Source: Pomphorhynchus laevis (Eukaryota > Acanthocephala > Palaeacanthocephala > Echinorhynchida > Pomphorhynchidae). From it: a DNA stretch of 64,000 nucleotides. The translations under genes were made by a program, and so were the position numbers. The first letter of the stretch is position 1, and each line of letters begins with the position of its first letter. The notes under the pieces were generated by a model, which did not search any database, was not told the DNA's origin, and worked only from the letters and a program-made list of their open reading frames with translations. The stretch covers positions 1 through 64,000 of the forward strand of contig WNNJ02002826.1 of the NCBI GenBank assembly GCA_012934845.2, read 5' to 3'. Shown here in pieces: positions 6,305-51,000 of this stretch.

Positions 6305-7549
6305 TTACGTGGTGGATGCACGAATCTGTGCGGCGGAGAGTGTCGATGGAACGGTTAGACGGATTCCGAGGCTGAATCGCGTATTTACCCTTCGCCGCAC
6401 AACTTGAAAATTTTTCACAATTAGATTTTTTTCACCGTTTTGAATTCTTTGTTGAAGCTCTTTCCTTGCAGATTTCAATCTGTTTCTATCTTCAGTGCTG
6501 AGGTCAGGTAGAAGTCTGATACTGGAGCCCCTTAACTTAAAGGAATTCTTGATGATTTGCTTACTAGTCTCGGGGCTATCAACAACAACTTTCAAAAGCC
6601 TTGGTTTGGTACCATCTTGTTTCTTCCCAATGCGAAAGAGGTGTATTACCTGTCTATTTTGTTCGACTGATATTTCTGTTGGGAGAACAGTTGAAAGAAC
6701 TTGCTTTACTGAATCAACATCATGTTTAATCCGGATGAGACTGTTTGGACTCGGTGATTCATTTAAATTTACAATAATGAAACATTTATCCCGATCGAAT
6801 GTTCGGCGTTTATGTCGTTTAGGCTCAGATAGAATAGGTATATTGGGGTTATCAGTGTTGTTTACAGTGGAATTGGTATGATTTATCATTTGTTTGAGTG
6901 TTCCATCCATTTTATATAGACTATGGGTTGTTTGAGGACAATAAAAAGTTGGGAGTGCTGTGTGATGTGGTGCTTCTGTGTTTGTTTCCGGCCTTGGATG
7001 TGTTTTCTGAGTGATATGGAATGTTTGTTTCTGTGTATCCTTGTGAGAAATGATGGAATTCTCTAGATTTGACTAATCCAGGAAATCGGATTTAAGGTTA
7101 AATAAGGAAGTTTCAAGGGTTGTTGCCTTTACGATTCGCGATCTTGCATGTCCTCGTGTCCAAACTCGAGTAGGGGTAGATTTCCGGAATATTGAAGTAT
7201 CAGATGTTGCCGTTATGTTGATCGGGGCGATTTCATTGTCTAGTGAAGGTATTGTATCTTGCTCGAATACTTCACATGTATAAGGGATATCTGATCGTAA
7301 TGGTTTATCAGTGTCTTCGGTTAGTGAGCGTAGATCGTTAATAGTCTTATTTAAATTTGCAATTGCAAGAGCTGCACAGAAACCACAATAGAAATTGCGA
7401 CTCGTCATTGTTTGAGAACTGTCTGAGGGGAAGCTTACTTTGGTCCATATCGTGCAGCCGTGAGAGTCACATGCCACTTCATTATCTGCGTACCCAACCG
7501 ACTTTGTTGTATTGTTGTGTTTCGCTTGCTTGTTGGTCTTCTTTGTCAT
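6305..7549 (-). pseudogene. CR1-like LINE ORF1 (Cys domain plus RRM-like), one in-frame stop
   Basis: The ATG at 7549 opens a frame with an N-terminal cysteine domain (CDSHGC..IW, then FYCGFC, spacing C-x4-C-x22-C-x2-C). A low-complexity linker with an RVWTRGHARSR block follows. A single TAG at 7073-7075 stops the frame, but the same frame stays open on the other side to 6305. That distal part contains an RRM-like nucleic-acid-binding region (RDKCFIIVNL ... RLLKVVVDS ... RKELQQRIQNGEKNLIVKN). Without the stop the protein would be about 414 residues. It presumably binds element RNA, as LINE ORF1 proteins do. The stop is most simply decay. Confidence 0.75.
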
Positions 7550-7570
7550 ATTTTTGTCATATAATGTGAT

Positions 7571-8085
7571 ATTGTACTGGAATTCAAATTTCCATCAATT
7601 TTTCAAACGGAAAATTCGTTATTGAATAATGGATCCGACCAACAGATTTCGTTTATTGCGGTATCAATGGAATTTGATTTAAATTTCAATTTGAAATTGT
7701 AAGAACTTATTATAATCAAGACAATTTTAAATTCTTTAATCGTTGAAGTAATCGTTGTAATCGATATAATCGTTGTAAACCTTTTTATCTCAAATGTAAG
7801 ATTTATAATAACCAAGACTTATGTTCCTCATTGTATCGAAATTCCACACCAGGTTGCAATCGAGGGTGAATAGTCTAGACAAGTTTTTAGTGAAGTCTAG
7901 AAAAGTTTTTAGTGAACAGTCTAGAAAAGTTTTCCTAATATATCTAATGTGGAAATTAGTTTTTAAGCTGCTGGTTATCATCACACCAAAATATTTGAAT
8001 TAACCCACTCGGCCTATCTGAATTGAACTTATCTGAATTGAACCAATCTGATACGATGAGTTGATTAAAGAACAATGAACATGTG
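7571..8085. repeat. Short tandem repeats next to the CR1-like 5' end
   Basis: No gene is seen. Near 7735-7785 the motif AATCGTTG recurs four times, possibly part of the LINE 5' UTR. Near 7872-7935 a ~22-bp unit (GTCTAGAAAAGTTTTTAGTG) occurs about three times. Confidence 0.4.
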
Positions 8086-8089
8086 CGAG

Positions 8090-8625
8090 CATTTAGAGGG
8101 GTTAACCCTCGAACCATTTTCCGATGTCCATTTTTCTAGACATGTCAGATTATCTTGAAGGATCTTAATGTCCCTTCCATCTCTAATACGCCGTCATATC
8201 TTAACATCGTCAGCATACATAACGACATCATAACGAATTACAGATGGGATATCATTGATATATACAATAAAAAGAAGTGGTGAGATAGCAGCACTCTGTG
8301 GAACATCAGAATGAATAGCGAATGTGGTGGACATATCTGCACTTACACGTACTTTGAAAGAACGTAAACTTAAGTAATTTGCAGATCAAGGCGACATACA
8401 TTGGACAAACACTATGTGACCTCAATTCGTTAATGAGACGATCATGCGGAATTGAATCGAACGCATAAGAAAAATCTACAAAAAGTACATCAGATTGAAC
8501 TCGTCCATCTAATCAAGACTGCAATGAGTTGGAAGAAATTACTTATTGTTAATCTATTTGGTCTGAAACCGTGTTGTGAGTCAGTGAGTTTTTTATCCCT
8601 TAATTTGTGAATGAGAAGATCATGA
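8090..8625 (-). mobile_element. Decayed CR1-like reverse transcriptase fragment
   Basis: On the minus strand the translation shows DVLFVDFSYAFDSIPHDRL (motif A), then after a frame change ISPLLFIVYINDIPS (motif B region) and VMYADDVKI (motif C). Stops and frameshifts are frequent. It is an old fragment of the same broad LINE group as the element at 3.4-7.6 kb but more degraded. Confidence 0.7.
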
Positions 8626-8946
8626 AATTTCTTATTTGAGCCTTAAGTTTATGTGCAAGCGGCTACATGATCATAACGGTCACTGTAAAAACACTTTAGA
8701 ACAGTAAAATATATGGTTACCGCTTATTTAAAGTATTATTTAAAATAAAGATGAGATGTCATTTAAGTACCATTTAAAATTTTTTAAGCTATAGAATCTA
8801 AGCGTGGTGAAGAACAAAATGAGAAGGGAAATAGGTCATTACAAACCTTGTACAAAAGATACAGTCTATATTTTTTGATATTTAATTATTTAAAATAATT
8901 ATAGTTGTTGAATTTTTTCTGTGAATAGTTAAAATAGTCATTTATT
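8626..8946. other. AT-rich spacer, nothing recognised
   Basis: No coding frame, repeat or RNA gene could be supported here. Confidence 0.3.
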
Positions 8947-9374
8947 ATTATACATTCAACAAAAGTTAATGTGATTCGAAAAACATTAGAGAACAGATTG
9001 GCTTTGTGGTCTACAAAAAAATATAAAGAGCTTTTTGACGAGGCCAATTATATACAAGTAGCATTTAGTGAACCTAGAAAAGATTCACATATGACGGATT
9101 GGAAAAAGAATTATGTTAGACTAATGTTACGAGGGAAAGTTGCTGTAAGTTCCGCGATTCTTGATAACAATGATTCGTCAGGTCCGCTAGGCCCTAATGT
9201 TATGGTTGAATATTCATCTGTCAAAGAAGTGCTTAAAAATCTACACCCTATCCCAGAAAATCCATATCCTGATTCTATTCTGTCATCACCAATTCATGGA
9301 GCGATCACACATCACTCTGTACGCTTCACGCAAATTGAATCAAAGCTTGTAAAAAGACTAACGGAAGTGCAGGA

Positions 9375-10650
9375 TCGTCAGGATGTGATTCGAGTCTATG
9401 GAAATTCATGCTCACAGGCTTCAAAAATAATTCACGTAACCTTGTCAGGGCTTTGGCTGAATTCACAATTCGATTAACTACTGATAAAATTCCTCCTGGT
9501 GTTCTTGATGCATTTACGACATGTAGGCTTGTCGCTATCCCGAAGAAATCCGGGGGCATAAGACCGATAGGAGTGTGTGAAGTTACGAGACGCATAGTAT
9601 GCAAAGCCATACTTGAGGTAGTAAAATTCGACTCGCAAGATGTGGCTGGAAAGAGTCAATTAGCAGCATCACAACGTGGCGGAATTGAGTTTGCTATTCA
9701 TTCCATCAAATCCGCATTTATGTCGAATAAACAACGTTGTGTTCTTGCCGTGGATGCTTTTAACGCATTTAACTCTTTAAATCGACAAGCTGCTATTCAC
9801 AATATTCAATACATTTGTCCTTCGTTGGCTTGTGTTCTTGTAAACACTTACGGAACCGACTCTCAACTAGTGCTTGGCGGTACAAGCATATTTTCTCGAG
9901 AGGGGTTCACACAAGGAGACACCTCGGCTATGGCGGCTTTTTCAATGGCCTCACTTCCGTTGATCAACAAAATTAAAAACAGTGTTCCCAGCATCACACA
10001 AGTTTGGTTTGCGGATGATGCAAACTTTGTCGGTACGATTGACGAGTTAACTATAGTATGGAATGTATTAAAAAGCAGTGGACCTCAATATGGATATTTC
10101 GTTAACGCTAAGAAAACACAATTGCTTACTCATCTATCTAAAATGAAGCAAACATGCCCATTGAAAGAAATTGGAATATCATCGGATGGTATTATGATAC
10201 TTGGCATTCCTATAGGCACTATCGAGTATGTAGATTCGGTTGCACTTGATAAATCTCAAAGTTGGACTCGTCTACTTGATCGTTTAGTAGCAATAGCCAA
10301 AGTTGATCCACATGTATCTTATATCGGTTTTACAAAATCAGTACAATGGAAATATACTCACTTTTTCAGGAATACAATATTTGAATGCGTGCATTTGTCA
10401 ACGTTGTTGACCATATTAAAAGACAAACTTTTACCATCTTTAACAAGTCGAACCTTGAATCATGATTGGTGGACAATATTGACCTCACCTCTTAAACTAG
10501 GAGGTCTAGGCGTACTAGACCCCATTTTCGCATCCACATTGGAGTATGAAAATGCACAACTAATCTGTGATACTTATGATTCTGAATATACAGGAGAAAC
10601 TCTGCGACAACTACAACCAGATGTTATAACAACGTTGATGACAGGCTGAG
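9375..10650 (+). pseudogene. REL-type LINE reverse transcriptase, long open frame
   Basis: The frame is open for more than 400 codons. It contains the finger motif (IPKKSGGIRPIGVCEVTRR), motif A (LAVDAFNAFNS), motif B (EGFTQGDTSAMAA), motif C (VWFADDANF) and the thumb segment LGGLGVLDP. The motif A and C aspartates are present. The upstream frame 8971-9360 carries the amino-terminal part and joins by a single frameshift. The frame ends where foreign sequence interrupts the element. Confidence 0.8.
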
Positions 10651-10875
10651 TTCACGAATTGTGAAGTCAGCCAAAGCCCTGACAAGGTTAGGTGAATTAT
10701 TTCCGAAGCCTGTGAGCATGAATTTCCATAGACTCGAATCAGGTGTTCAAACATGAACTTTTTTGATTTTTGTTTGCGAGTCTTTTTTTCTTTACTTTTT
10801 CTTTTTTAACAGTGCAACTGTGAGCTTTGCTCGTCTGTTTGTCGAAATAATAATAAAAAGGATTTCTTGTCAACG
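10651..10875. mobile_element. Insert with inverted REL-LINE fragment and a LINE-like 3' tail
   Basis: Bases about 10653-10745 are the reverse complement of about 9386-9478 of the same element, with roughly 8-10 differences. After this comes a T-rich stretch and a sequence resembling a CR1-like 3' end (CTGTGAGC-ttt-GCTCGTCTGTTTGTCG) followed by AATAATAATAA. The arrangement, an inverted 5' part plus a 3' tail, resembles twin priming or a chimeric insertion. Confidence 0.55.
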
Positions 10876-13335: not shown

Positions 13336-13339
13336 AATA

Positions 13340-20261: not shown

Positions 20262-20898
20262 CAAGGGAGGATAAAATAGGAAAGAAGAGACACACGATGA
20301 AAAGCTTTACCGTTAGCATTGTTATAATGAGAAAGATTAATGAAGTTTGGTACGTAGTTGAACAAGAAGTGTTTGAAAGGGTAGGTTCCATAATGGAATT
20401 ATAAGATGCGAAGTCAGGTGTTGATGCGAGGGAAACATCTAAAACAGCATTGGTCTGAGTGGTCGTGTGTAATACAGGAGTAAAGGAGCAGGAAAACTGT
20501 AGTAGTCGTACTGATGTACAAGAAACCGCATGTGAACTGTTTACGTTTATACACTGAGTGGTCGGATATTTTAACACGAACAAGTGTCCATACATCACAA
20601 TCTTTGGAATCGCATCCAACTTCAAAGCTGGTATAACCATCATTGCATTCCGATGTATAAGACTTTTGATCAGGAACAGGGATCTGAGATCGCGCTTTTT
20701 TAGGCATGGCATTTTATCGATAGATTGAGCTCAATCCGCGAGCGTAGCGAGCTGAACTGACAGGAATAATTTGGAACTGGCAGGAATAATCTGGAACTGA
20801 CAGGAATAATCTGGAACTGACAGGAATAATCTGGAACTGACAGGAATAATCTGGAATGTAAGAATTTTAATAACAAAGACTTTTTTAACATAGACTTT
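20262..20898 (-). mobile_element. L2-like LINE 5' end: 5' UTR minisatellite and ORF1 start
   Basis: On the minus strand the copy begins with AAAAAAGTCTTTGTTATT near 20893. A 5' UTR follows with five copies of a 20-bp unit (20757-20858) and the box GCTCGCTACGCTCGCGG (about 20733-20749). ORF1 starts at ATG 20707. The first ~70 residues hold the Cys domain CDSKDC..VW with FTCGF; its last cysteine is lost. A frameshift follows, and a second frame carries disordered ORF1 linker to about 20265. Confidence 0.7.
20757..20858. repeat. 20-bp minisatellite in a LINE 5' UTR
   Basis: The unit AACTGACAGGAATAATCTGG is repeated about five times with one or two variants. A related array of seven or eight diverged units lies at 45615-45770, again just upstream of L2-like LINE coding sequence on the minus strand. 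Confidence 0.9.
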
Positions 20899-20904: not shown

Positions 20905-22995
20905 TGAGAATGTCATCAGCATATTGCATAACATGGAAGTTAAATTTATGAGAAATCGAAGACAAGTCACCGAGATAAAGAGAGAAAAGCATAGGGCCTA
21001 ATACGGAGGCTTGTGGAAAACCGGTCGGGATGAATGAAGAATGGGAGAGAGAAGAGTTAGAATAGACGCGAAATGTACGGTTTGATAGATATGAAGAAAA
21101 CCATGATACAGTGGGTAAAGAGAAGCCATAATCATGACGAAGGCGATGTAGAAGAATCGAGTGATCGACGATGTCAAAAGCAGACGATAGATCAAGATAA
21201 ACTATGACACTACATAATTTATGATCGCGCGAGATGAGTAAGTCATTATAAACTTTAAGACAGGCAATTTCAGTAGAGTGATTAGAGCAAAAAGCGGCTT
21301 GGAAGGGAGGAAACAAGTTAGAGGAAAAGAGATATGTATTAACTTGCTTGAGAACGAGACGCTTAAGGAGTTTAGAGAGGGTTGGGAGAAGTGAGATTGG
21401 ACGGTACGAAGATGGTAGTGAGGAGTCGAGAGATTGCTTTCTGATGAGAGGACGAACAGTGGCGCATTTCCAGATGGAAGGAAATGTACGGCTACGGATG
21501 GACGAGTTGAACAATGTGGTTAGGAAGGGTGAGATAGTGGAGCAGATATTTTTAAGCAAGTGAGTGGGAATGGGGTCAGAAGGAGTGGTTTTTTTAGGTA
21601 ATGACAGCAGAACCGAAGAAACTTCATCAGACGAAACGGGAAGAAGGTGGAATAGTTCTGGGAAGGAAGTATTTAAAGAGAAGAGTGGGTACAAGGGGGC
21701 TACGGGTAGTAGGGAAAGTAAATTAGATAGCTTAGTTTGTAGATAAGAAGAAAATTCATCAGGATTTATATTACAAGAAGTAGATGATCGTGAAAGAATT
21801 GAGTTTAAGATTTTCCAATGAGATTTAGAGTTGGAAGATGACTCGAGTTGATTTCGCCAAAAGATAGTACGTTTAGTACGTATAAGAATAAGATGTGAAC
21901 GGCGTAGAGAAAAGTAGGAATCACGGAGATTTGGAGGGAGTGAGTTGGGAGAACGTTTAAGAAAGCGATTATACACACGAAAAGAGTGACGGAGTCGACG
22001 CTTAGAAAGACTACAGTCAGAATCAAACCAGGGAGCATGGCGCAAGCGCTGAGAGCGTCGGTGTCGACTAGGCAGAAGTTTATTGATGATAGACATAAGT
22101 TCAGAATCAAACAGAATGCAGAGATCATCGGGAGAGAGATAGTTAAGAGGAAGTGAAAAGAGTGAAGAATTGAGTAAGGCTGTGCAGAGAATAGGGATAT
22201 CGAGAAGTTTCCAGGGTCGACTTGGTGTGGATATTGGTGAATGCGGAGAAGGAGGATGGGGACGAGTAAGATTAAGAGTGACAAGGAAATGATCGGACAA
22301 ACCGGGATCAGTAATTGACAAGGAAGTATAGCCATTGAAGCAGTTAGGAACAGCAATGATGTCGAGAGCACCTCAGAGAATATGAGTTGGGCTTGTTGAA
22401 AGTAATTTATAGCTAAAATCAGAAAAAAAGATTAGTTAAAGTGATAGAGTCAGAGTCAGCCGGGCGATCAAGACGAATGTTAAAGTCACCGAAAACAAAT
22501 GGAGTATAAGACAATGAACAGTGAGACATAAGATCTGCAAGGTCCTTAAAGAAGATACGTGAGGGGGCAACTGAACCAGGACAGTATACAATCATAAGTT
22601 CCAGAGGGAAAGGAGTTGATAATCTGCATATGAATAATTCAAACGAGGGGTAAACGTTAAAATTAACGTTAATTTTACGTAAATACATTGGATGACGAGC
22701 AATGGCAACAATACCGCCATGATTGAAAAGCAGTAGATGTATGAGAGGCAATTGGACGAGCTGATTCAACTAAAGAACAACCAGAGCGACATAGACGACG
22801 AATAGCAAGATCGTCGGAGTCAGAGTGCCAGGATTCGGTAATGCAGAGAATATCGATAGATAATTGATCGAAGATATCGATAAGCATATCAGCTTTATGA
22901 AAAATGGAGAGAGTGTTGAATAGACTAAGACGAAAATTATGCTTAGGAGCGAAATCGACTAGCGAACAAGACAAGGGGGAGAGATGGGACGCCAT
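20905..22995 (-). pseudogene. Family Y LINE ORF2 (endonuclease and RT, 3' truncated)
   Basis: The ATG at 22995 opens the APE-type endonuclease (LCITESWHSDSDD, FNIRLDRPAD); the endonuclease frame shifts near 22700 and again near 22420-22370. From 22321 a 473-codon frame covers LSDHFLVTL, the linker, RPISLLPTLSKLL, YLDLSSAFDIVDHS, an altered motif B (TGFPQASVLGP instead of TGVPQGSVLGP) and QYADDILI. The frame stops at the truncation. The motif B changes and the missing thumb make it inactive. Confidence 0.75.
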
Positions 22996-24653
22996 CGAAT
23001 TTTTGGCCTTATGTGTACAACGTGAAAATTTCCGTTGATTTGACGTATAGATAAGGATGACTCGCCGTTTGCTTCACGTCGATGTTTCTCAATGCGAGCT
23101 AAATTAAGCTGGGCAATATCAGAAGAAGAGCGGTCATGGTAGATACGACAAGTAGACGAAGTGGTAAGAAGTTTAAAACGTAGGGAAAGTACCAAGGATG
23201 CATGTGAGCTATGTCGGAAAACGATTTTTAGGAGTGGAGGACTGAGATGATTGGATTTAGTGGATTTGTTTAAACGGATCAAAGATACAGGAGCGATATT
23301 ATTGAAGAGGGATGGATTATTATCAGGAAGAATTGTTGCTAGGATAGACTTGAAAGCAGATACATCATCATCGAGGCGACATTGAGGAGAAGCAGATTCG
23401 GAAACCTTTAAATTAGATATGATAATGCATCGATCGCGCGAAGGAAAACGATTACGTAGTGGTGGACGGACAGACCTGGTAGTAGTAGAGGCAGAAGAGC
23501 AGATAAACGTGGGAATGACACGGGTGCTAATTGAAGATTTAAGATAGTTTGGAGCATGTGTGACAGGAGTGGAGTGTTGAATCGGTTGATCGGAGATGTT
23601 ACTGGAGATGATTTTGACGGAAGGATGTAAATTATTGATAGGTGATACGGTTGGAGCATGTGTGACAGAAGTGGATTGTTGAATAGGTTGAACGGAGATG
23701 TTACTGGAGATAATTTTGACAGCAGTATGTAAATTATTGAGAAGTGATACGGTAGAGGTAGAGTAAGGAGTACGTGAAGAGAAGAATGAAGTATGAGATG
23801 TGTTTAGATGTGTGGATGAATAGGAAAAATGAGGTATGAGATGAAGGCCGGATCTTTTCAGTTTGAGGCACTTTGTCCAAATTACGCAAAAAGTCTGTTT
23901 ATTGTACATCTTCATGCGCTCTTTCGAATGGCGTGTAAATTTTTTGAGAGAAATGCGTTTGTGGCTAAAAAATTTTAATATTTAAATTTTTTCATAATAA
24001 TTTAAAATTTAATTTTAATTTCAAATTTCAAAGTTAGAAACTTAAAAAATTATATTTAAGTATTTTTCATATATCTTATCAATATACAATGATTTGAGAT
24101 TTTTTCTATGCTCTCACGAAAAAAACACAATTTTTTTATTTTTTTGTTCAAAAAGTAATTTGAATTTGAAATATCTTAAAATTTTGCAATTATAACATAT
24201 AATTTTTATTGCGTTATCGTAAACATCACAGTTATATTGACTTAAGTTGAAAATATTAAAATATTTGAATCATTCAAAAAAGAGTTATTTAAAATGGCTT
24301 TTCAAAATATGCATATTTTTAAGTTTTTTTTTTAATTTTGGTCAAACAATCGATCCCCAATAAGACATTAAATCCATTTTGTTAAAACTTATCTTCATTA
24401 TTCCTTTTATATTCAATTTCCTCCTCTCTGCTTGATGTCGGTGGATCTCAACAGTTGAGGTCCTATTTACTGGAATAGTGAATGAGGTCCCAAATTGTTG
24501 ATGGTCAGTGACATCAAGCGAAGGGGATGAATGGGGGTAAATATGTGATTAAACTACGCGGTTGCATTTAATAGAACTAAGAGATTCAAAACCGTTTTAC
24601 TTATAATTTTTTAAAAGGCACAACGGTTGCAAATATTTACCGAATAAATAAAA

Positions 24654-25216
24654 TTATTGGCATAGCTTAAAATTCCTTAGACACTCGAATATGGACTCTA
24701 ATTTATTGTCATTTCGATGACGTCTGTGCCAAATGAATTCGACTAAATATGAGTCAATCATTGAGCGATGTGTATCCCATCGCTTTCTATTGCCTGATTT
24801 AAGCTGGTTATATGTTGACTCAGGTTGTTGAGTATGAATTCCTTCTGAGCTAACAAAGTCAACTGAATGATTTACAGTTCGGTGTTCAAATCTGTATCCT
24901 TCTAGGGTTTGCACACCACAATATCCTTTCCATAGATCTGAATGAATGATCGATCCAGGTAGTATGCACTGTTTTATGCACTCGTTAAGAGTTTTAGCAT
25001 TTCTATGATCAACAGCAAAAAGAAACACTTTAGATGTTTCTCTACACACGCCACCGAAAACCCATTGTTGTGGAAGCATGCGCCCCCTATTATATTTCCG
25101 ACGGGCGAAAACTGTTTCATCGATCTCAACTATTATATTTTCGCCCCCTATCTTACATGGATTTTTTAATATTTCATCAGCACAAGCCTCGCGCATGTAA
25201 CTATTGTAGTCAACGG
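24654..25216 (-). pseudogene. Merlin transposase, catalytic part
   Basis: This carboxy-terminal part carries the DDE catalytic core of the ISXO2-like (IS1595/IS1016) family. The first Asp is in VEIDETVFARRKYNRGR, the second in IIHSDLWKGY and the Glu in HTQQPESTYNQLKSG. The family signatures WVFGGVCRETSK, VDHRNAKTLNECI, RTVNHSVDFV and the FIWHRRH tail are present. No stop is seen before LRNFKLCQ at 24654. The protein is cut at VDYNSYMREACADE by the LINE. The N-terminal half lies at 29589-29834. Transposase cuts and pastes the element via its inverted repeats. Confidence 0.9.
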
Positions 25217-25250
25217 AGAATAAAATCACGAATCAAACGACTATATACAA

Positions 25251-26648
25251 ATGGGTCGGAAAAAACAAAAGTCTCAAGTTCCCAACCATGTTGCGTCCAA
25301 CACCGATGTTAGAGATGTTTCCAATGGATCTGAACAACAAGTCCTTTGCTCAAACAATGATTGTCACACGTGGGTAAGTATTTGGACTTCAGAATCCCAG
25401 GCATCTTGCCTTGCAGACAACGAATTCTACTGTGGCTACTGTTCGGCTAAGATGATAAATACGATGAAGAGTGAAATAGAGAGTCTCAAGACAAATATAT
25501 TGAAACTATCTGGCAATGCAGCGATGTCCACACATGCCTCTTCGTATTGTAATAAGTCTCAACCTCGATGCCCAATTCTCCCGCATTCGATTGCCTCTAA
25601 GAATGCCAAATCTCCCATCTCTTCTACAGGTATTACTATACATCCTTCAATTTTGCCCAATAAATCAGCTCAATCTTCTGATGTTACTGTCATTGACCAT
25701 TTGCAACCCAGTATTTCTTTTGTCGTATCAGATAAATCACCTTACATTTCTACCCCTCATTGCGTTTCTACGTCATCATCAGATAATCCATTATCAGATA
25801 ATCTGAAGGAGCCGCAAATTGTATCGCAGCAAGATGGATTTTGTCAAGTTTATGATAAATCTACCGATACAGTGACGGAGCCGCAAATTGTTACAACTAA
25901 TGTATGTTCACTCCCCGACATCCCACATCCCGTCCTTCCTGTCTCGTTTCTCAATAACTTGCATCCATCAATTAAAATCACCTCCACCAGCCTCCACTAT
26001 CCTTCCACTCATAACCTTTCCTCACATCGCTTACCACCCGCTTTATTATCATTATCCTCTATGTCTCCCGTCGTCAAACCAAATCCCTCCAAATCATCAA
26101 CTGCCAGCTCTTCTATCGTGATCTCACCTACTCACGTCAGTCGTCCTCCTTTACGGAAGCGCTTTGCTTCTCGCGATCGTTGCGTCATTGTTACTAATAT
26201 CACGCCTTCTAACTCCTTATCTCCACAAGCACGTCTGGACCACGATGTTTCCGCCTTCAGATCCATCCTCTCGTCTATTGTTCCTGCGGATAAACCATCC
26301 TTTTTCAAGGACATTTCTCCAGTCGCATTCATCCGTCTAAACAAATCTTCTCAATCTAATCCTTCCCAGCCCCCTCTCCTAAAAATTGTTTTCAAGCATC
26401 GCTCTCACGCGTCTTCTGTCCTCTCTCAACGATTCAAACTCATGTCATCTTCAACCACTCGAATTTTCCCCGATCGCGCCCCTTCCGAAATCGCTCAAAT
26501 CTCTTCAGCCCGCATCGAAAAACGTCGTCGCGAGGAAAACGGCGAAACTTCACTCGCCATCCGAAACATAGACGGAAATTTTCAAATTGTCCACACCCGT
26601 CCAAAAATTCGATGGCGCTCCATCTCTCCTATGTGTCTTCTCCACTAG
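25251..26648 (+). CDS. L2-like LINE ORF1 protein (family Z, copy A), 465 aa
   Basis: The frame is intact from ATG 25251. Residues ~28-65 form the Cys domain (CSNNDC..TW ... FYCGYC) with spacing C-x4-C-x22-C-x2-C. A Ser/Pro-rich disordered linker follows (about 70-290). The carboxy-terminal third is an RRM-like domain (RDRCVIVTNITPS ... PVAFIRLNK ... PPLLKIVFKH) and a basic helix (ARIEKRRREENGETSL). It likely coats element RNA and aids integration, by analogy with other LINE ORF1 proteins. Its last 37 nt overlap the start of ORF2 in another frame. The start has MGRKKQK, a basic possible nuclear-targeting segment. Confidence 0.8.
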   Translation: MGRKKQKSQVPNHVASNTDVRDVSNGSEQQVLCSNNDCHTWVSIWTSESQASCLADNEFYCGYCSAKMINTMKSEIESLKTNILKLSGNAAMSTHASSYCNKSQPRCPILPHSIASKNAKSPISSTGITIHPSILPNKSAQSSDVTVIDHLQPSISFVVSDKSPYISTPHCVSTSSSDNPLSDNLKEPQIVSQQDGFCQVYDKSTDTVTEPQIVTTNVCSLPDIPHPVLPVSFLNNLHPSIKITSTSLHYPSTHNLSSHRLPPALLSLSSMSPVVKPNPSKSSTASSSIVISPTHVSRPPLRKRFASRDRCVIVTNITPSNSLSPQARLDHDVSAFRSILSSIVPADKPSFFKDISPVAFIRLNKSSQSNPSQPPLLKIVFKHRSHASSVLSQRFKLMSSSTTRIFPDRAPSEIAQISSARIEKRRREENGETSLAIRNIDGNFQIVHTRPKIRWRSISPMCLLH

Positions 26649-29510
26649 TCTCTTTCGCCACAGCACACGGTTTCCGCCTCGGTCTCCTCAACACTAGATC
26701 TATTCTCAATAAATCCGATCTTATCCTCAACCTATTCACCAAGCAATCCATCGATCTCTTCTGCCTCACCGAATCCTGGCACTCAGATTCCGACGACCTT
26801 TCCATTCGCCGTCTGCTCTCTGCCGGTTGCTCCCTAGTCGAATCCGCCCGCCCCCTCAGCTCATGCCCTTCTAAATCCTCTAATCATGGCGGCATCGTCG
26901 CATTCGCGCGTCACCCCGCGTCTCTTCGCAAAATCAATCCCCCTTTCAGTCCTTGCTCTTTTGAATTGCTCACTTGTCGTTATTCTAACCCGATCACTCT
27001 AGATCTCGCCATTGTATACCGTCCTGGTTCATCAGCTCCAACAGTCTTTATTTTTTACCAAACTCGCTGACCTCCTTTCTCATTGTTCTTTGTGTTCAAT
27101 CCCTACACTTGTTCTAGGCGACTTTAATATCCGCCTAGACCGCCCCTCTTCCACGGATTCCATCCGGTACACCAACATTCTATCCAACTACAATTACAAA
27201 CTAATCTCCACTGCCCCCACACATATACTTGGTGGGGCACTCGACATCATCGCTGTCCCCGATCATTTTGCTGCCTACACCTCACTGTCCATCTCTGATC
27301 CTGGTCTATCCGATCACTTTCTTATCACCCTTGATCTTACTCACAACCACATCCCTCCTCACACACCTACAATCCTACGTCGCCCTTGGAGAAATCTTGA
27401 CCTCTCCCTTCTCCGCTCTGCCTTACTCAAATCGTCTCTATCATTACCCACAATAACATATTCATCTCCTCACGATCTCGCCTTTCTTTTCGACTCTGAA
27501 CTCACATCCACTCTCGATATTCTCTTGCCCTTCAAGTCTCACCCACACCGTCGCTTGCACCGTGCCCCATGGTTTGACATCCAATGCCTACTCTCAAAGC
27601 GTCGACTCCGCCATGCTTTTGAGAGTCTATCACCGCTCTCTCAGACGCGATTTCCGCTCGATCACTCCGTCTTTCCGTGATTCCTATCTTGCTCTTCGCC
27701 GGTCTTATCTCAACCTACTACGTACCAAATGCAACTCCTTCTGGCAGCATAAAATCATCACTTCATTCAACACTAAGACTCTCTGGCATACTTTTAACTC
27801 AATTCTTGCTCGCTCTTCTCCGCCGTGCAACATCAATCCCCATGATTATTCGTCATTTCTCCAGACTAAAGTATCCACGTTGCTCTCTCACACCCCGGTC
27901 TCCATCCTATCCCACTCTGCCCCAGCCGCTCTCATCCTTCCGGAACTCTTTCATCTTCTCCCTGTCTCACCTACAGAAGTATCATCTGTCCTCATGTCCT
28001 TGCCCAACAAAACCTCACCTGCCGATCCCCTGCCTACCCACATATTAAAATCTATATGCTCATCGATATCCCCATTTCTCACAACCTTGTTTAACTCGTC
28101 CATCCGCAGTCGTATCTTCCCTTCACACTGAAATCCGCAATCGTTCGTCCCCTCCTTAAGAAACAATCGCTCGACCCCTCCCTTCCTTCTAGCTATCGCC
28201 CCATTTCACTACTCCCTACTCTTTCTAAGCTCTTAGAACGCCTCATCTTAATACAAATCAACGCTTATCTCTCCTCATCCAATCTGTACCCTCCTTTCCA
28301 ATCCGCTTTCCGCTCTAATCACTCGACAGAAATCGCATGCATAAAAGTGTACAACGACTTACTCATTTCTCGAGACAAGGCTCTATATAGTGTTCTCATC
28401 TCCCTCGACCTCTCCTCCGCATTCGACATTGTCGACCACTCCGTCCTCCTTTCTCGCCTTCGTTATGATTACGGCTTTTCTTCCTCCTCCGTAGCTTGGT
28501 TCGCCTCATATCTATCCGACCGTTCCTTTCGCGTCTGTTCTAATTCATCATCCTCCCCTCCCATCCCTATTTTTTGCGGGGTTCCACAAGGTTCAGTCCT
28601 AGGTCCCCTGCTTTTCTCTCTTTTGCTTGGCGATCTCTCTCCATTTATCAAACCTTACTCCTTTAACGTCATGCAATACGCCGATGACATTCTAATCTAT
28701 GATCATGCACCCGCACATCGCATACACGATATCGGCATTTCTGCCTCCAACTGTCTTTCTTCTATCTACAAACGTCTCTCCAATCTCCATCTCGTTCTAA
28801 ACGCCGAAAAGTCCAAAATAATGTGGATCCTTCCCCGTAAACCAAGCATATCTCCTCCCATTGTATCTTTTGCCTCATCGATCATCCCTGTAGTCCACAA
28901 TCTCACTTTCTTAGGCTTCCATTTCGATGATCACCTTTCCCTTAAACCCTTCGTCCGTGACAAGGTCCGCTCGTCTAACTTAATTCTTCGTGACATCCGC
29001 CGTATCCGCCCCCTTATCGACTTCCGTTCTTGTATGTCTCTTCTTTCATCGCTTCTTTTCCCTAAAATCGATTACTGCCTTAGCCTTTTCGCCAATTCTC
29101 CAAAATCCATCATCCTACCCCTACAACGAATAATCAACACCGCCGTTCGAGTGCTCTTTCGTCTCCGTCGCTTCGACCACACATCCACATATTTTGCCCA
29201 ACTCTCCTGGCCCACCATCCACATCCGCATCAAACTCCGCCTTCTTCTCATTACTTTTCGTCTCATCGCTGTCGGCTCCCCATCGTTCATCAACCTTCCT
29301 TTCTTAGACGATACTCGCCCCACCTCGCTATCGCTTCGTTCCTGTCATACCCTCTTACTCCACGTTCCTAATTACTCCAACAACTACGGTCTCCGATCCT
29401 TCCTCGTCGCCGCCTCACTCGCCTGGAATCAACTCCCTCTCGACGTCCGCCGCGCTCCCTCTTTTATCACATTCAAACACCTCCTCCGTTCACACCTTCT
29501 CGACGCCTGA
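26612..29510 (+). pseudogene. L2-like LINE ORF2 (family Z, copy A), three frameshifts
   Basis: ATG 26612 starts an APE-type endonuclease: LGLLNTRSI, CLTESWHSDSDD, GGIVAFARHP, LVLGDFNIRLDRP, ILGGALDIIAVP and LSDHFLITL. One-base changes near 27050, 27620 and 28130 shift the frame. From 28347 the RT is open, with SLDLSSAFDIVDHS, CGVPQGSVLGPLLFSL, MQYADDILIYDHA and the thumb ending LLRSHLLDA. A repaired protein would be about 960 residues, the usual size for L2/CR1-like ORF2. Confidence 0.8.
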
Positions 29511-31329: not shown

Positions 31330-31960
31330 TATATTAGATCTCTAACTTTTTTAAAGGCTGCTTCAATACATTCTTTGGTCGAACAGGAGTAGAAATCAAT
31401 ATATTGTGGTTCTTAGGACTGTGTTTTGCGAATATGTCAGATAAAGGTGAAGGCCATTTATAAGGAATATTCTCAGGTGTAACTTTATCCTTGTTGATTG
31501 CCATCACAGTGCTGTCATTGATATTTCTTCTTTGTTTATAAGCTGTCCGTGAATGTTTATGTCCTCGTGTCCAAATGCGAATCGAACTTGAAGCATCTAT
31601 TACGTCTGGTTCTTTATTTGAATTGACGTGTAACGACATTGGCGTAGTGATTTTGCTCTGGCATATGCTAGATTCTTTGTCAATAATTTGTTCTTGAAAC
31701 CTACGTGTCTTTAAGTTAAAATGAGCATTGTCCTTTGCTGATGTCAATGAACTACAAAATACGATTGACGCAGCACAAAAACCACATATGAATTTTCTTC
31801 TACTCAATGTATCAGCATCTTTATGTGGTACAGTTACTGTAGTCCAGACATTGCAGCCATCACCATCGCATCCTACTTGTCTTGATATGAATTCAGGAAT
31901 GCCGTTTCCCTTACGTCTGCCCATAATTGTAATTGTATATGCTTATTGTGTATTTATGCG
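31330..31960 (-). mobile_element. CR1-like LINE ORF1 fragment
   Basis: A 196-codon frame from ATG 31924 has the Cys domain CDGDGC..VWTTV ... FICGFC with the full C-x4-C-x22-C-x2-C pattern. An IRIWTRGHKHSRT block matches RVWTRGHARSR of the element at 7.1-7.5 kb. The RRM-like part is absent: the sequence ends near 31334, next to the 5' end of the family Y LINE. It is a truncated ORF1 of a second CR1-like copy. Confidence 0.75.
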
Positions 31961-32224: not shown

Positions 32225-32360
32225 AATTTTAATAAATTTAAGATTATCTGATTATTTGAATATTTCGGTTTCTGCTTGATTGGTGTTTTTTTGTCCTACA
32301 TTAAGCATTTATATTGTTGTATGTTTGTTTTGGGTGATTTTTGACATACCTTAGTGGAAG

Positions 32361-33203
32361 ATGCAGATAAAAATCGGTAAAGATAATGATCTTTATATTA
32401 CCAACGTGATTGTAAAGGCATCGTTTGCATCGTTTGTTTCAACGACTGCCTTACAGCCATTGGATTATATGAAGACCCAAAAACAGCAACCGCCGCGAAA
32501 CGTGTCACCGATATTATCAGAGCGCACAAAACTATCATTTCGTATGCTTAACCAACCGCTTACATTATGGAGGGGACTGAGTCCTTCTCTGGTAAGAAAT
32601 GTGTGTGGTAGCTCAATGTACTTTTGTTTACTTGAAACCGCGAAAACCGTAAATTTTCTTGCTGACATGGACGAAAATCATTTATTTTTAAAAAACCTCG
32701 TAATCGGTTCAATATGCAGAACTGTGTCATCAATTTCCTTATTTCCATTTACATTTATGAAAACCAGAATGGAAAGTTCCTATTATTCTTATTCGTCGTT
32801 AACAAATGGATTATACTCAGTTGTTAAAAATGAGGGTATCATAAGGTTGTATACCGGTTTATTGCCAACTTTAATTCGAGATGTACCTTTTTCAGCAATA
32901 TACTTGGCCATATTCTTTCATCTACGTATTACGAGTCCAATCAATATAAATTCACAACCAATATTGGAAAAATTTCAATGCGGGCTTATAGCAGCTACAA
33001 CGGCCTGTTTTATAACTCAACCGGCAGAAATTGTAAAAACATATTGCCAAGTACGACCAACTTCTGATAAAAGCTCAATTATAATGAACATTTTAACTAA
33101 TCGTGGTTTGAAATCGTTCTGGTGTGGAATCGGTTTTCGTTTAATGCATAAAATTTTTTCTACTGCCATCACTTGGACAATATACGAGTCTATTTCTGTT
33201 TAA
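32361..33203 (+). CDS. SLC25A38: Mitochondrial glycine carrier, SLC25A38-like, intronless
   Basis: This 280-residue frame has three mitochondrial-carrier repeats. The signature motifs are QPLDYMKT (near residue 33), FPFTFMKTR (second repeat) and QPAEIVKT (third repeat). The second motif has Thr in place of the usual acidic residue, as in human SLC25A38 (PITVIKTR). The segment KTRMESSYYSYSSLTNGL followed by YTGLLPTLIRDVPFSAIYL aligns well with that protein (KTRYESGKYGYES, LLRDAPFSGIYL), and the end TWTIYES matches AWTVYEE. SLC25A38/Hem25 imports glycine into mitochondria for haem synthesis, working in the inner membrane. The ATG at 32361 starts just before the first repeat and gives the usual length. 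No intron or frame break is seen. The gene sits between LINE debris and a MITE. Confidence 0.9.
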   Translation: MQIKIGKDNDLYITNVIVKASFASFVSTTALQPLDYMKTQKQQPPRNVSPILSERTKLSFRMLNQPLTLWRGLSPSLVRNVCGSSMYFCLLETAKTVNFLADMDENHLFLKNLVIGSICRTVSSISLFPFTFMKTRMESSYYSYSSLTNGLYSVVKNEGIIRLYTGLLPTLIRDVPFSAIYLAIFFHLRITSPININSQPILEKFQCGLIAATTACFITQPAEIVKTYCQVRPTSDKSSIIMNILTNRGLKSFWCGIGFRLMHKIFSTAITWTIYESISV

Positions 33204-40343: not shown

Positions 40344-41741
40344 ATGGGTAGGAAAAAACAAAAGTCTCAAGTTCCCAACCATGTTGCGTCCAACACCGAT
40401 GTTAGAGATGTTTCCAATGGATCTGAACAACAAGTCCTTTGCTCAAACAATGATTGTCACACGTGGGTAAGTATTTGGACTTCAGAATCCCAGGCATCTT
40501 GCCTTGCAGACAACGAATTCTACTGTGGCTACTGTTCGGCTAAGATGATAAATACGATGAAGAGTGAAATAGAGAGTCTCAAGACAAATATATTGAAACT
40601 ATCTGGCAATGCAGCGATGTCCACACATGCCTCTTCGTATTGTAATAAGTCTCAACCTCGATGCCCAATTCTCCCGCATTCGATTGCCTCTAAGAATGCC
40701 AAATCTCCCATCTCTTCTACAGGTATTACTATACATCCTTCAATTTTGCCCAATCAATCAGCTCAATCTTCTGATGTTACTGTCATTGACCATTTGCAAC
40801 CCAGTATTTCTTTTGTCGTATCATATAAATCACCTTACATTTCTACCCCTCATTGCGTTAATACGTCATCATCAGATAATCCATTATCAGATAATCTGAA
40901 GGAGCCGCAAATTGTATCGCAGCAAGATGGATTTTGTCAAGTTTATGATAAATCTACCGATACAGTGACGGAGCCGCAAATTGTTACAACTAATGTATGT
41001 TCACTCCCCGACACCCCACGTCCCGTCCTTCCTGTCTCGTTTCTCAATAACTTGCATCCATCAATCAAAATCACCTCCACCAGCCTCCACTATCCTTCCA
41101 CTCATAACCTTTCCTCACATCGCTTGCCACCCGCTTTATTATCATTATCCTCTATGTCTCCCGTCGTCAAACCAAATCCCTCCAAATCATCAACTGCCAG
41201 CTCTTCTATCGTGATCTCACCTACTCACGTCAGTCGTCCTCCTTTACGGAAGCGCTTTGCTTCTCGCGATCGTTGCGTCATTGTTACTAATATCACGCCT
41301 TCTAACTCCTTATCTCCACAAGCACGTCTGGACCACGATGTTTCCGCCTTCAGATCCATCCTCTCGTCTATTGTTCCTGCGGATAAACCATCCTTTTTCA
41401 AGGACATTTCTCCAGTCGCATTCATCCGTCTAAAAAAATCTTCTCAATCCAATCCTTCCCAGCCCCCTCTCCTAAAAATTGTTTTCAAGCATCGCTCTCA
41501 CGCGTCTTCTGTCCTCTCTCAACGATTCAAACTCATGTCATCTTCAACCACTCGAATTTTCCCCGATCGCGCCCCTTCCGAAATCGCTCAAATCTCTTCA
41601 GCCCGCATCGAAAAACGTCGTCGCGAGGAAAACGGCGAAACTTCACTCGCCATCCGAAACATAGACGGAAATTTTCAAATTGTCCACACCCGTCAAAAAA
41701 TTCGATCGCGCTCCATCTCTCCTATGTGTCTTCTCCACTAG
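40344..41741 (+). CDS. L2-like LINE ORF1 protein (family Z, copy B), 465 aa
   Basis: The same length and layout as copy A ORF1: N-terminal Cys domain, Ser/Pro-rich linker, RRM-like domain and basic tail. By eye about nine residues differ from copy A, among them Asn to Lys in the FIRLNKSS segment and Trp to Ser near the end. All cysteines are kept. Such similarity between two copies 15 kb apart suggests insertion within a short time of each other. Confidence 0.8.
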   Translation: MGRKKQKSQVPNHVASNTDVRDVSNGSEQQVLCSNNDCHTWVSIWTSESQASCLADNEFYCGYCSAKMINTMKSEIESLKTNILKLSGNAAMSTHASSYCNKSQPRCPILPHSIASKNAKSPISSTGITIHPSILPNQSAQSSDVTVIDHLQPSISFVVSYKSPYISTPHCVNTSSSDNPLSDNLKEPQIVSQQDGFCQVYDKSTDTVTEPQIVTTNVCSLPDTPRPVLPVSFLNNLHPSIKITSTSLHYPSTHNLSSHRLPPALLSLSSMSPVVKPNPSKSSTASSSIVISPTHVSRPPLRKRFASRDRCVIVTNITPSNSLSPQARLDHDVSAFRSILSSIVPADKPSFFKDISPVAFIRLKKSSQSNPSQPPLLKIVFKHRSHASSVLSQRFKLMSSSTTRIFPDRAPSEIAQISSARIEKRRREENGETSLAIRNIDGNFQIVHTRQKIRSRSISPMCLLH

Positions 41742-44251: not shown

Positions 44252-44328
44252 TTCACAATTTTGTTTTTGTTGTGGTCATGTAAGCGTGCGCTGGCACGCA
44301 TTTGCCACGTTAAAATAAATCTTTTTTT

Positions 44329-45792: not shown

Positions 45793-45807
45793 GATGTTTG
45801 TAGCTTC

Positions 45808-46520: not shown

Positions 46521-46529
46521 AATCAAAAA

Positions 46530-47262
46530 TGTCAGTTCAATTTAACATTAGACAAACGATTTTCAGTTTTTGTTTTTTTAATCAACTAATTTAAATTAAA
46601 ATTTAATTTAAATTATTTAATCAAAATTCTTTTAAATTATTAAATTAAATTAAAATATTTTAATTTTTTATACAATAGCAAATTGTGAGTATATTTAATA
46701 AAATTCATCAATCTAATTAAAACTTGTCTACAAATTCATCAAAGTCGAGAAAACTAATTATAAAGTCGCATTTGAATTCTAAACCTGATTCATTTGTGCA
46801 AGACTAAGCATAGCAGGAAATTGACTAATTTGAGATAGAGTAGTATTAAGATCAAAACAGTTCAGCCCCTTCAACTTTATCAAGTTAAGTTTATATTCAC
46901 TTTTCAAAATTGCCTTTAATAATATTAATATTAATAATCTGAGAATATTTATTATATGATATAATATAATATTTAATATTTTAAAATTTGACTCCAAATT
47001 AATCAGACCATTTCAAAGACGAGAAGACTAAAGAAGCGACTTAGTGGGTCACCTTACAGGACTTGTGTTGAGGGATTTTGAGTGACGATAATGTGTTCAA
47101 TGTTTGCGATGATTTAATCTGTTTCATATCTTTCTAAAAATACTGTCAATGCTAGTTTTCTAATTTCGTTGAAATAACTAATTCCAGAATGATCAGTAAT
47201 CGGCTAAAGCGCATGTGATCAAGATGATGAGATTTCATTATACTTGTGATGTCATGATAATT
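46530..47262. other. AT-rich non-coding stretch
   Basis: Runs of ATTTAAATTAAA dominate 46600-46990. No gene or clear repeat is seen. Confidence 0.35.
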
Positions 47263-47807
47263 CGAGTTGAACTCTGATTGACACGTGCAGTACACATTAA
47301 AAATAACCTGATAGAATATATTCGATACTTTAAATATTATACAGGATAAGTGATCTTTTAACGAAATTTGCATTTGATCATTATATGATAAATAAATCAT
47401 CAACTGCCAGCTCTTCTATCGTGATCTCACCTACTCACGTCAGTCGAACATACTTTATCGAACATTCTTTAAGCCTCTCCTGTAGCCTTTCCAATTTTTC
47501 AAAAATATTTTATCGACCTATTATTCAGTGCTTAGGTTCGAGTTGAACTCTGATTGACACGTGCAGTGTACCCTAAAAATAGCTTGCTCATTGATAGAAC
47601 ATATTCGATACTTTAAATATTATACTGGATAAGTGATATTTTAACAAAACTTGCATTTGATCATTATATAATAAATAATTATGAATAATAAAACATTTTA
47701 AATGGCCTCGTTGCTGTCTGATTCACTGCTTGATGGCGATCGTCGCTGTCAATTTGAATTATGTCACGTCGTAAGCTTTACGTGCATAAGTTGAGGCTGT
47801 ATGCAAA
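47263..47807 (+). repeat. Repeat copies A3 and A2 separated by a 53-bp LINE-derived filler
   Basis: A3 (47263-47398) and A2 (47450-47807) are directly repeated parts of A1. Between them, 47394-47446 is identical to a stretch of family Z ORF1 (26091-26143), for example CAACTGCCAGCTCTTCTATC. The filler overlaps the end of A3 by a few shared bases (AAAT). Confidence 0.85.
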
Positions 47808-48001
47808 CACTCTAAAAATAGGTTGTTTAATAAAATAATGCTAAATAAAATTTAAATAATTATTTATTTTTGTATTTATTTTGTACATACTTGGTTTTAA
47901 CTGAAATTACGAGTGGTAATTCTAAAATTAAAAATATTATCTTAGTCGTAGATATACTAGTCGTATTCTTAACATGTACTTGATGGGATGTTAATAACAA
48001 A

Positions 48002-51000
48002 ATGACAGACAATAATGATGATATACCAAGCATTTCACCATTTTATGCCTTTTTAAGATCGTCTTCAGGTATTTACTATGTCGAATTTTTGGCAATTTTC
48101 TGTTTTTTACAGAGCCAATCTTGCAATGGATATCTTCATATATGACTTCAAATTCAAGCAATCATGGGTTAAATTCAAAAGAAGTTGTTCTGTCTGGAAG
48201 GCAATTTGACATCGATTCTGGTATTTTCGATTTGTGCATTTACTTGTATTTTACATTGACGATTTAAAAAGAGAGCCTTAGCTCACTTCTCAAAGTGCAT
48301 ATGTGGTTCACGTACAGATCAGGATTTAATGCTATATCTGCAGGTTCGTTCAAATGTATACTATCATACTTTATCGTTATCGTTAGCACATTTTATAACC
48401 ACTGATGCCGGATGGGGATGTATGCTACGCTGCGGACAGATGATGCTTGCTCGTGCTCTTGTTAAATCCTACATATCTTCGCCAGGTTTAATATTTATTT
48501 TTTAAACTGTATTATTAAACATATAAATAACATGATCAATGTTTATATATTTATATTAAAAATGTTTTTATTTTTACAGTGTAAAATGGGTAACCCGCAA
48601 TCGGATCCCATAATGGGATTATTTGTTATATTGTATTCTGAATAGGATTGTTTATTGTAGGCCGTGGCAATCGTATACACATCGATTAAACCTTATATGA
48701 TTACTAATTATTGTTAAATTATAAAATATTATAATTATAAAAAGTTCGATGATAGTTCGATGTGCTCTTAAATTGTTCAGGGCGTTTAAACATCGAAATG
48801 AATAAAAAAGAAAATTATTGTTCATACATTTTCGACTATTGCAATAGTCCTTTTAAAGTGTAATGTTTTGACCTTCAAAAAAGAAAAATGATATATTTAT
48901 ACCATAAAAACGGAAGAAACCAACGATGCCTACCCATTTTGTATTGTGCGAGTAGGTATAACCAACTTCTAATTGTCTTTATTACCATCCATCGTGTTAG
49001 GATAACTATAAATGTGTATATACCATTGTATGATCAATGATCTATTTGAATGCCACTTAGTGGCATGCGATTGGAGCAAATACGATGTTCGGACGGTTTT
49101 TGTGATACCATCTGCAGCTCCAAAGGATATTCTGGCAAGGAAGTTTAGATGCTGTTTTTATGCAGCTGTAGTTATCTATTGTTCCCGCATTAAATCGGGC
49201 AACATTGGTTCAAATTGATTCATCTACGCTTTTATGATGTGATGATGACACACCTGACGATCTTACAGTAAAATACTGGTGTAATAGAAGGGCAAGATAA
49301 TCATATGAATCACAACGCATCATTGATATCTCTTGATGCTATTAAACCTTCTAGAATCCAGTTTTCTTCAAACAAAACAGTGCTTAATACCGATGATCAA
49401 CTTACAATATATTCACTCAACAATGTAACGAGACTCACTCCTTGGGTACGTATCAATAGTATCTATTCTAGCGTTACATCATTGAGACCTCTTTGTACCT
49501 CTTTGATCCATGATCTAGCGATTTCCTTGTCCTGTTACAATCAAGTTATCCAAACCAACTTCCCATAAATGAACTATCTCATCTATCCTGCCCTACTTTC
49601 TCTCATCACTCCTCAAACTACGATTCAATTATAACAGACTACATCGATAAGACTTGTCTCTCAACAATTTATCTCTAATAATCTAATTACATCACATATG
49701 CAAATTTCTTCTTTGACAACCAAACTCTTAAAACGAGCGAATGAACCTACACAAAGCGAGGTAACAAAACGATTGAACCTACATTCACATTATGCTCTTA
49801 ATTCACCTGTCAAATCGGAACATTTCAGCATTTCAGTTCAACCATCTACTATTTTTCCATCGTCATAGCCCTTCTCTACTTCAATCACGTCTGCCACACC
49901 ACGTATCCCCTACTTTGCTCGTAAACGTCATGCTTCTAGCGATCGTTTTTTTCAAAAACGATGGCTAGAAGTAAAATTGGTATTTTGAAAAAATCCCTCT
50001 TTCTGATTCTGATAAAGTACCATTTCGCCTTGTTCACGATGTTAACGCTTTTCACTCCGTTTTTAAACTTATAACTCCTGCAAACTATCCCTCACTTTTC
50101 AAAGAAATCAAAAACTTATCTATCTTTTGCTTAATATATTCATCCAGTGATACCACCTACCCTGTTTTACTTTATATTATCTTAAAAGATCGCTTCGAAG
50201 CCTCCTCTATTCTGTCCGGACATTTTTTACAATTATCTTCAACATTGAACTATAGAATGCATCCTGATCGCTCCCAATCTGACATGCCAATCTCGCATCT
50301 GCCCGTGATGAAAAACTTACTCTGGAACGTAACGGAGAATCTTCCCTAGTAATCAAACAGATTGATGAAAATTTTCGTGTCATCCTACCAAAAATTTGAT
50401 TAAGACCACTTCCTCTGTTCGTCTTCTCTGACTACCTCTTTATTCCATCTCGGCCTACTAAACATCCACTCCGTAGCGAATAAAGTTCAATCAGTACTTG
50501 GCATCCTCTCCAAACAGTCTTTAGATCTGCTTTCCCCCACTAAATCTTGGCATCTTGATAATAGCGGCATCTCTTTTCGACCCCTACGTTCTTTCGACTA
50601 TTCTGTCATCGATAAGTCCCGTTTTCAATCAACTGGTAGTGTATCATCCATGAATAATTGTGGATTACTCGTTCGAGAGAGATCATCGACGAGATTATCA
50701 TATGATCTTAATTCTGATGCAATATCATATTAATTAATAATGTAATAGAAGAATATAATTACAGAATAAATTATAATTATTAACAATATATATAATTACA
50801 TTATTTATATCAATTAATAATGTAATATTATATTAATAATATAATCCTAATATATTATATTAATAATATAATCCGCATATTATATTATTAATATAACATA
50901 TTAATAATATAATATTAATCACATCAATATTATCATCAGAGATCATAAGGATTACTCGTTACTAGACGAGAGAGATCCTCTCTCTAGTCTTTCTCTGCTC

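Follow-up and report, generated by a model that had tools for sequence, protein, structure and literature searches.

A four-cysteine domain, likely derived from a PHD finger, at the N-terminus of LINE ORF1 proteins in Pomphorhynchus laevis

Intact and decayed copies of the four-cysteine core

We analysed a 64,000-nucleotide stretch of the Pomphorhynchus laevis genome (contig WNNJ02002826.1, positions 1 to 64,000; hereafter the window), in which several long interspersed nuclear elements (LINEs) carry a small cysteine domain at the N-terminus of the protein encoded by their first open reading frame (ORF1). Scanning all six frames of the window strictly for C-x4-C-x22-C-x2-C returned exactly four intact copies of the core of this domain, and relaxing the linker to 20-24 residues added only a single chance match, riddled with stops. 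Together with three decayed copies, the window holds seven cores (4/7 intact, 3/7 decayed), all with the 22-residue linker:

25347..25442, plus strand: intact core of family F1, C-x4-C-x2-W-x19-C-x2-C
40440..40535, plus strand: intact core of F1 copy B, identical to the core at 25347-25442
7376..7471, minus strand: intact core of family F2, from the pattern scan
31775..31870, minus strand: intact core of family F3, from the pattern scan; an AlphaFold2 model was made
20519..20614, minus strand: decayed core of family F7, fourth (last) Cys lost; the intact copy is L093
30841..30936, minus strand: decayed core of family F6, third Cys changed to Arg; the intact copies are L080 and L081
49066..49161, plus strand: the most decayed core in the window, second and fourth Cys changed to Tyr and Trp to Arg

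A sequence-only reading of the window had described the motif as carried by six frames plus copy B. The motif is real, but this wording was too generous, as three of the seven copies are decayed. Its claim of a constant 22-residue linker was borne out in all seven window copies and in nine families, and the Trp that it placed three residues after the second Cys is indeed replaced by Arg in one copy, at 49066-49161. It had also contrasted decayed copies that lose Cys residues with young copies that keep them. The three decayed copies have lost Cys, but we reject this as a sign of function, since dead copies lose everything. Because Cys loss in dead copies is uninformative, evidence for constraint must come from comparison between families. 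The motif C-x4-C-x2-W-x19-C-x2-C is real, and the observation is stronger than first stated.

Families of the domain across the genome

The P. laevis assembly (249 Mb, 3242 contigs) was searched with the N-termini of F1, F2, F3, F7 and F5 as protein queries. Each search scored the best 150 of 1062 to 4217 first-look candidates, so all counts are lower bounds. At least nine families of the domain could be read, and in each of them the linker that separates the Cys pairs is 22 residues long. The representatives are the window copy for F1, L020 (F2), L050 (F3), L077 (F4), L079 (F5), L081 (F6), L093 (F7), L108 (F8) and L096 (F9). The whole ORF1 was read for F1-F7, and the region around the domain for F8 and F9; the F8 copy has a stop just upstream of the first Cys.

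With the F1 N-terminus, 66 of 151 listed matches tie at the top score, being 100% identical over 84 residues; together with the many full-length frames, this suggests that the families are young. Among the eight loci of one search, six have intact cores (L077-L081 and L084); the third Cys is gone from L082, and no core is seen in L083. Another search gave 18 loci, with eight intact cores (L093, L096, L098, L100, L102, L103, L108 and L109), two that have lost one Cys (L095 and L101) and eight without a core by pattern. At L082, an F3-like zinc domain whose third Cys has become Gly is followed within 1.3 kb by an F1-like RRM-CTD; this locus is either a chimera or a nested insertion.

The sole database relative of the F1 ORF1 was P0001, which is 99% identical and itself from the acanthocephalan P. 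laevis. Searches for relatives outside the genome with the F1 N-terminal region (7 candidates) and with an alignment of six ORF1 families, A2 (6598 candidates), returned P0001 only, and a search with the F5 RRM-CTD (180 candidates) gave no match. The protein collection searched may contain few animal transposon proteins, so these results do not show that the domain is absent elsewhere.

Constraint on the core and a single metal site

Across the nine families, the 42 codons surrounding the core can be aligned gap-free, at pairwise identities of 24-67%. All Cys are kept in the chosen intact copies (36/36), and the spacing C-x4-C-x22-C-x2-C, the Trp at +3 from the second Cys, a Phe two residues before the third Cys and a Gly directly after it are each found in 9/9 families. 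An aromatic residue seven positions before the first Cys (-7) is present in 8/9. TGT and TGC are both used in each of the four Cys columns, while the sequence between the Cys pairs varies freely except at scaffold positions. The ratio of nonsynonymous to synonymous divergence (dN/dS), a check that the sequence-only reading had proposed, was 0.10-0.71 in the 17 of 36 family pairs with finite dS; these ratios are rough, as dS is above 1 in each of the 17 and was saturated in the other 19 pairs. Comparison of these nine diverged families shows four cysteines kept at fixed spacing by purifying selection.

The full-length ORF1s of the six families aligned in A2 have no invariant Cys or His besides these four Cys, and the nine-family core shows the same four. 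One zinc is therefore expected: the pattern suggests one tetrahedral metal site, for which zinc would be the simplest ligand-bound metal.

Kinship with PHD fingers

Searched alone against PDB sequences at E<=10, the F6 domain gave seven matches, all of them to PHD-finger proteins: SHPRH, Spp1 (twice), 1wew, ING4 and ING3 (twice). We take 1wew, and the matched parts of the other proteins, to be PHD fingers. In the five printed alignments the second Cys and the Trp are aligned in every case, and the last Cys pair is aligned in SHPRH, Spp1 and ING3. In a small control, F6 was shuffled twice with C, W, F and G retained; this gave five matches, none of them to a PHD finger. The only match for F3 alone was Spp1, residues 68-112, which is the same stretch as that matched by profile A7. 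The SHPRH PHD ranked first for profiles A4 (E 0.065, 6 matches) and A7 (E 0.042, 8 matches) and third for profile A5 (E 0.081, 8 matches). Spp1 was matched at its PHD stretch by A5 (E 0.17 and 0.39) and A7 (E 0.079, 0.39 and 3.2), and by A4 at a second, non-PHD stretch only. UL31 chains matched by A4, A5, A7, A8 and F2 share a short stretch with one Cys and were taken as chance.

In a PHD finger, the second zinc is bound by the second and fourth Cys pairs, and the weak PDB matches to PHD fingers fall repeatedly in the register of this site. The Cys aligned in SHPRH are the fourth, seventh and eighth PHD ligands. From C4 to C7 there are 22 residues, the same number as in the core; SHPRH has its Trp at +3, and F-Y-C precedes its final Cys pair. 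ING3 and ING4 also have C-x4-C, but their Trp stands one position later. Two PHD features, the Trp after C4 and the aromatic two residues before C7, occur in all nine families at the positions seen in the SHPRH alignments. The core resembles PHD fingers (PF00628; ING, SHPRH and Spp1 types) in C3, C4, the Trp, the aromatic before C7, and C7-x2-C8, whereas C1, C2, the His and C6 are missing and Pfam gives no match. Families other than F6 lack every ligand of the first zinc (two upstream Cys, and a His and a Cys that follow the Trp), and F6 has only the His, at +5; in place of the eight-ligand Cys4-His-Cys3 set there are four invariant Cys/His only. The sequence-only reading had spoken of half a PHD finger. 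This is the likeliest reading after testing, and the half retained would most likely be the second-zinc half, comprising C3, C4, the following Trp, C7 and C8. The PHD-derived identity of the domain is likely but not proven.

Several results weigh against this identity. Pfam searches of the four intact ORF1 frames and seven isolated domains matched neither a PHD nor a zinc family at E<=10, and the few sub-threshold matches fall outside the zinc domain. Every single PHD match is non-significant (best E 0.042), and the Spp1 score of 0.079 for A7 owes part to the second, non-PHD stretch. No matches were found among PDB sequences for F1 alone; F2 alone gave six, none to a PHD finger, and profile A8 gave seven, none in a PHD stretch. 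Comparison with seven host PHDs by hhalign gave a probability of 0.3%. The shuffle test against the host-PHD profile was weak, as the summed score was reached by 27/400 shuffles with Cys fixed and by 11/400 with C, W, F and G fixed. The scores of F2 and F4 were lower than those of their shuffled versions, and for F5 the two were equal. The -7 aromatic is missing from F1. The family loci were found by domain similarity and intact copies were chosen, which favours full Cys sets. Finally, the best Foldseek match of the predicted zinc domain was the papillomavirus E7 CR3 domain, and it was weak. None of the 28 Foldseek matches at E<=10 was a PHD chain, which is no evidence against a PHD fold; a second look with VIA-align placed the AF10 and BPTF PHD chains within five rows.

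The E7 match raises the alternative of a single-zinc dimerisation module that joins ORF1 proteins, whether PHD-derived or not. E7 CR3 binds one zinc through C-x2-C-x29-C-x2-C and runs strand, Cys pair, strand, helix, Cys pair, helix. The predicted core has a similar order of strands and helices and E7 CR3 is its top Foldseek match, with structural scores that are all weak. Their Cys spacings differ, however, the core keeping C-x4-C-x22-C-x2-C in 9/9 families, and there is no sequence match between them. We regard such a module as unlikely.

The non-significant hhalign comparison, the weak shuffle test and the lack of PHD matches for F1, F2 and A8 would also suit a new zinc fold without PHD descent, whose likeness to PHD fingers lies in positions common to any C-x4-C...C-x2-C finger. 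Such a finger would not readily account for the seven PHD matches out of seven with F6, compared with none out of five for shuffles keeping C, W, F and G, nor for the fact that PHD fingers have already been described from this position in ORF1 (PMC4120745, available text). We regard a new fold as unlikely.

Complete PHD fingers were also sought in the genome. PF00628 had 90 matches, none on the window's contig among those listed, and 16 were examined (L001-L008 and L085-L092). Among these 16, no complete PHD or intermediate form was found in a CR1-like or L2-like ORF1. The complete PHDs borne by repeats (L007, L008, L085 and L088) lie in frames resembling another reverse transcriptase (RT) family; at L007, a complete PHD and RT-like motifs share one frame (by eye). 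L001-L006, L087 and L090 look host gene-like by eye, and L086, L089, L091 and L092 have no full PHD by pattern. An ING search of the genome gave one match, L111.

Organisation of ORF1 and the two ORF1 groups

ORF1 proteins of these families open with a basic tail. The zinc core comes next, and a long linker of variable sequence separates it from a conserved C-terminal region. The frames in the window are:

25251..26648, plus strand: F1 ORF1, 465 aa, with basic tail, zinc domain, linker and RRM-CTD (open frame, alignment)
26142..26645, plus strand: RRM-CTD region of the F1 ORF1 (AlphaFold2, Foldseek)
40344..41741, plus strand: ORF1 of F1 copy B (open frame)
28095..29510, plus strand: RT frame of the F1 element ORF2 (Pfam RVT_1, E 1.8e-32)
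7073..7549, minus strand: N-terminal part of the F2 ORF1, ended in this copy by an in-frame stop (open frame)
6305..7072, minus strand: frame after the F2 ORF1 stop, containing the RRM-CTD (open frame, alignment)
5535..6431, minus strand: endonuclease frame of the F2 element ORF2 (Pfam Exo_endo_phos_2, E 1.7e-13)
3479..4708, minus strand: RT frame of the F2 element ORF2 (Pfam RVT_1, E 1.8e-29)
31334..31924, minus strand: F3 ORF1, shortened in the window copy (open frame)
22962..23531, minus strand: RRM-CTD region, F6/F7-like (alignment)

Other copies of the F2 ORF1 are open over 429 aa, or 414 aa counted from the Met. The AlphaFold2 prediction for the C-terminal region has a pLDDT of 78, and its best Foldseek match in the PDB was the RRM-CTD of human L1 ORF1p (2ldy, E 7.3e-4; 2yko, E 1.8e-3), entries for which take ranks 1, 2, 3 and 5. 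The predicted fold of this region resembles the RRM-CTD of human L1 ORF1p. ORF2, with endonuclease and RT, follows ORF1; Pfam detects both for F2 and the RT for F1, with no endonuclease match at E<=0.01 in the F1 and F6-side frames tried.

The sequence-only reading had assigned the elements to two LINE groups. Two ORF1 groups do exist: a tree of the RRM-CTD splits F1, F6 and F7 from F2-F5 with a support of 100, and the identity between the F1 and F2 RT frames is 30% over 112 aa. The group names are less secure: judged by RT and endonuclease motifs, F1, F6 and F7 may be L2-like and F2 CR1-like. In alignment A2, a second short motif, approximately [ST]R[VI]W[TK][RK]GHxxSR, is visible in the ORF1 linker of F2, F3 and F4.

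The RRM-CTD, rather than the zinc domain, is likely to be the RNA binder. That the zinc domain is a nucleic-acid-binding finger which, aided by the basic tail, helps the RRM-CTD to bind RNA or DNA is quite unlikely: there are 3 to 5 Lys/Arg within the first 12 residues in the seven families checked, and the CCHC zinc knuckles of SART1 ORF1 help to package its mRNA (PMC4120745, available text), but the present pattern differs from CCHC and the sequence between the Cys pairs is free to vary outside the scaffold.

The F5 ORF1 (L079:73-1566, minus strand) starts MARTKKTETKK, and its N-terminus is 98% identical in many copies. The histone H3 tail starts ARTK. The MARTK start is possibly a histone mimic, or it may be a chance likeness within a basic tail.

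Exchange of the N-terminal module

The F6 and F7 ORF1s are 94% identical over their last 165 residues, with a dS of 0.21, whereas their N-terminal zinc modules are only 36% identical, with a dS of 1.24. In a blastn comparison of F6 with F7, no similarity was found upstream of about codon 126 in F6 and codon 98 in F7. The F6 zinc core is 50% identical to that of F3, 34% to that of F7 and 23% to that of F1; a tree of the zinc domain is short and poorly supported (32-84). Near-identical RRM-CTDs joined to unlike zinc modules imply that the module has been shuffled. Fast evolution of the F6 and F7 zinc modules was rejected as the cause, given the dS of 1.24 against 0.21. As the synonymous sites shift together with the protein, we read the N-terminal zinc module as exchanged between the F6 and F7 ORF1s, the 5' module having another history. 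Module exchange rests on this one clear pair.

Comparison with known systems and proposed function

PHD fingers in LINE ORF1 proteins have been described before. According to the available text of Metcalfe and Casane (2014; PMC4120745), many CR1 and L2 ORF1s carry PHD domains, and domain shuffling has taken place; type IIC ORF1, found in L2 subgroup 6 and CR1 subgroup 5, combines an N-terminal PHD with an L1-type RRM-CTD. The ORF1s reported here are similar in having an N-terminal zinc domain followed by an RRM-CTD in two ORF2 lineages. However, the type IIC PHD spans 51 or 50 aa (HHpred probability 96.6 or 99.4), in contrast to a core of about 32 aa with one site here, so that half a PHD takes the place of the complete one. 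None of the words cysteine, C4HC3, degenerate and rotifer occurs in the main text of that paper. In the P. laevis genome, no class of repeats is larger than the LINEs, at 36.01% (PMC7310846); CR1 is not mentioned in the main text of the genome paper, nor are ORF1 and PHD in that of a bdelloid transposable element paper that includes the P. laevis genome (PMC7943196). No description of a one-zinc PHD form in LINEs was seen among the literature matches listed, as far as their available text goes. The sequence-only reading had called the domain little described, which fits the one-zinc form but not the presence of PHDs in CR1 and L2 ORF1s. Judged against the main text of PMC4120745, the one-zinc form of the PHD-bearing ORF1 appears to be new.

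Outside transposons, DPF3a has a truncated PHD called a half PHD finger, which mediates protein-protein interaction with HEY1 (PMC4824069, available text). The present core would likewise be a truncated PHD, although DPF3a is a mammalian splice isoform rather than a transposon protein.

The best explanation for the data as a whole, to which we give a probability of roughly 60%, is an N-terminal, single-zinc, PHD-derived LINE ORF1 domain. The four Cys would bind one zinc in the manner of the PHD second site, the first site having been lost. Less certainly, the RRM-CTD might coat the element's RNA, while the half PHD might dock the ribonucleoprotein particle onto a protein of the nucleus. The likeliest partner would be a histone tail, held in a groove with the invariant Trp and the -7 aromatic as its walls. 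Docking of this kind could help to place the particle on chromatin ahead of target-primed reverse transcription.

Chromatin reading is plausible in view of the invariant Trp and the -7 aromatic in 8/9 families. The latter resembles a cage Tyr of ING2; no paper was found for the residue numbers. An invariable Trp forms a wall of the methyl-lysine cage (PMC10124903, available text), and we infer that the core Trp may be this cage Trp. A stronger version, in which the domain is a working one-zinc histone reader whose Trp and aromatic pocket have been kept for modified lysine, we consider doubtful. It is likewise doubtful that trading of reader modules between elements lets each family aim its particles at a different chromatin state; under such a histone-reader reading, the F5 MARTK start could serve as a built-in decoy ligand.

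As of 2014, no functional studies of the PHD domains of LINE ORF1 proteins were known (PMC4120745, available text). A natural minimal version isolates the part that selection needs, and a domain this small is suited to direct tests with zinc, histone tails and RNA. Exchange of modules between near-identical ORF1 bodies provides natural swap experiments.

Neighbouring frames in the window

Several other frames were noted by eye. An ISXO2-type transposase-like frame (24654-25232, minus strand) directly adjoins the F1 copy. A 282-aa frame at 32355-33203 (plus strand) is mitochondrial carrier-like and is a probable host gene amid the LINEs. The frames at 1717-2808 (minus strand) and 9339-10649 (plus strand) may be RT frames akin to the L007-type PHD repeat family. 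A Penelope-type RT-like frame lies at 59801-60283 (minus strand), in the AT-rich end of the window.

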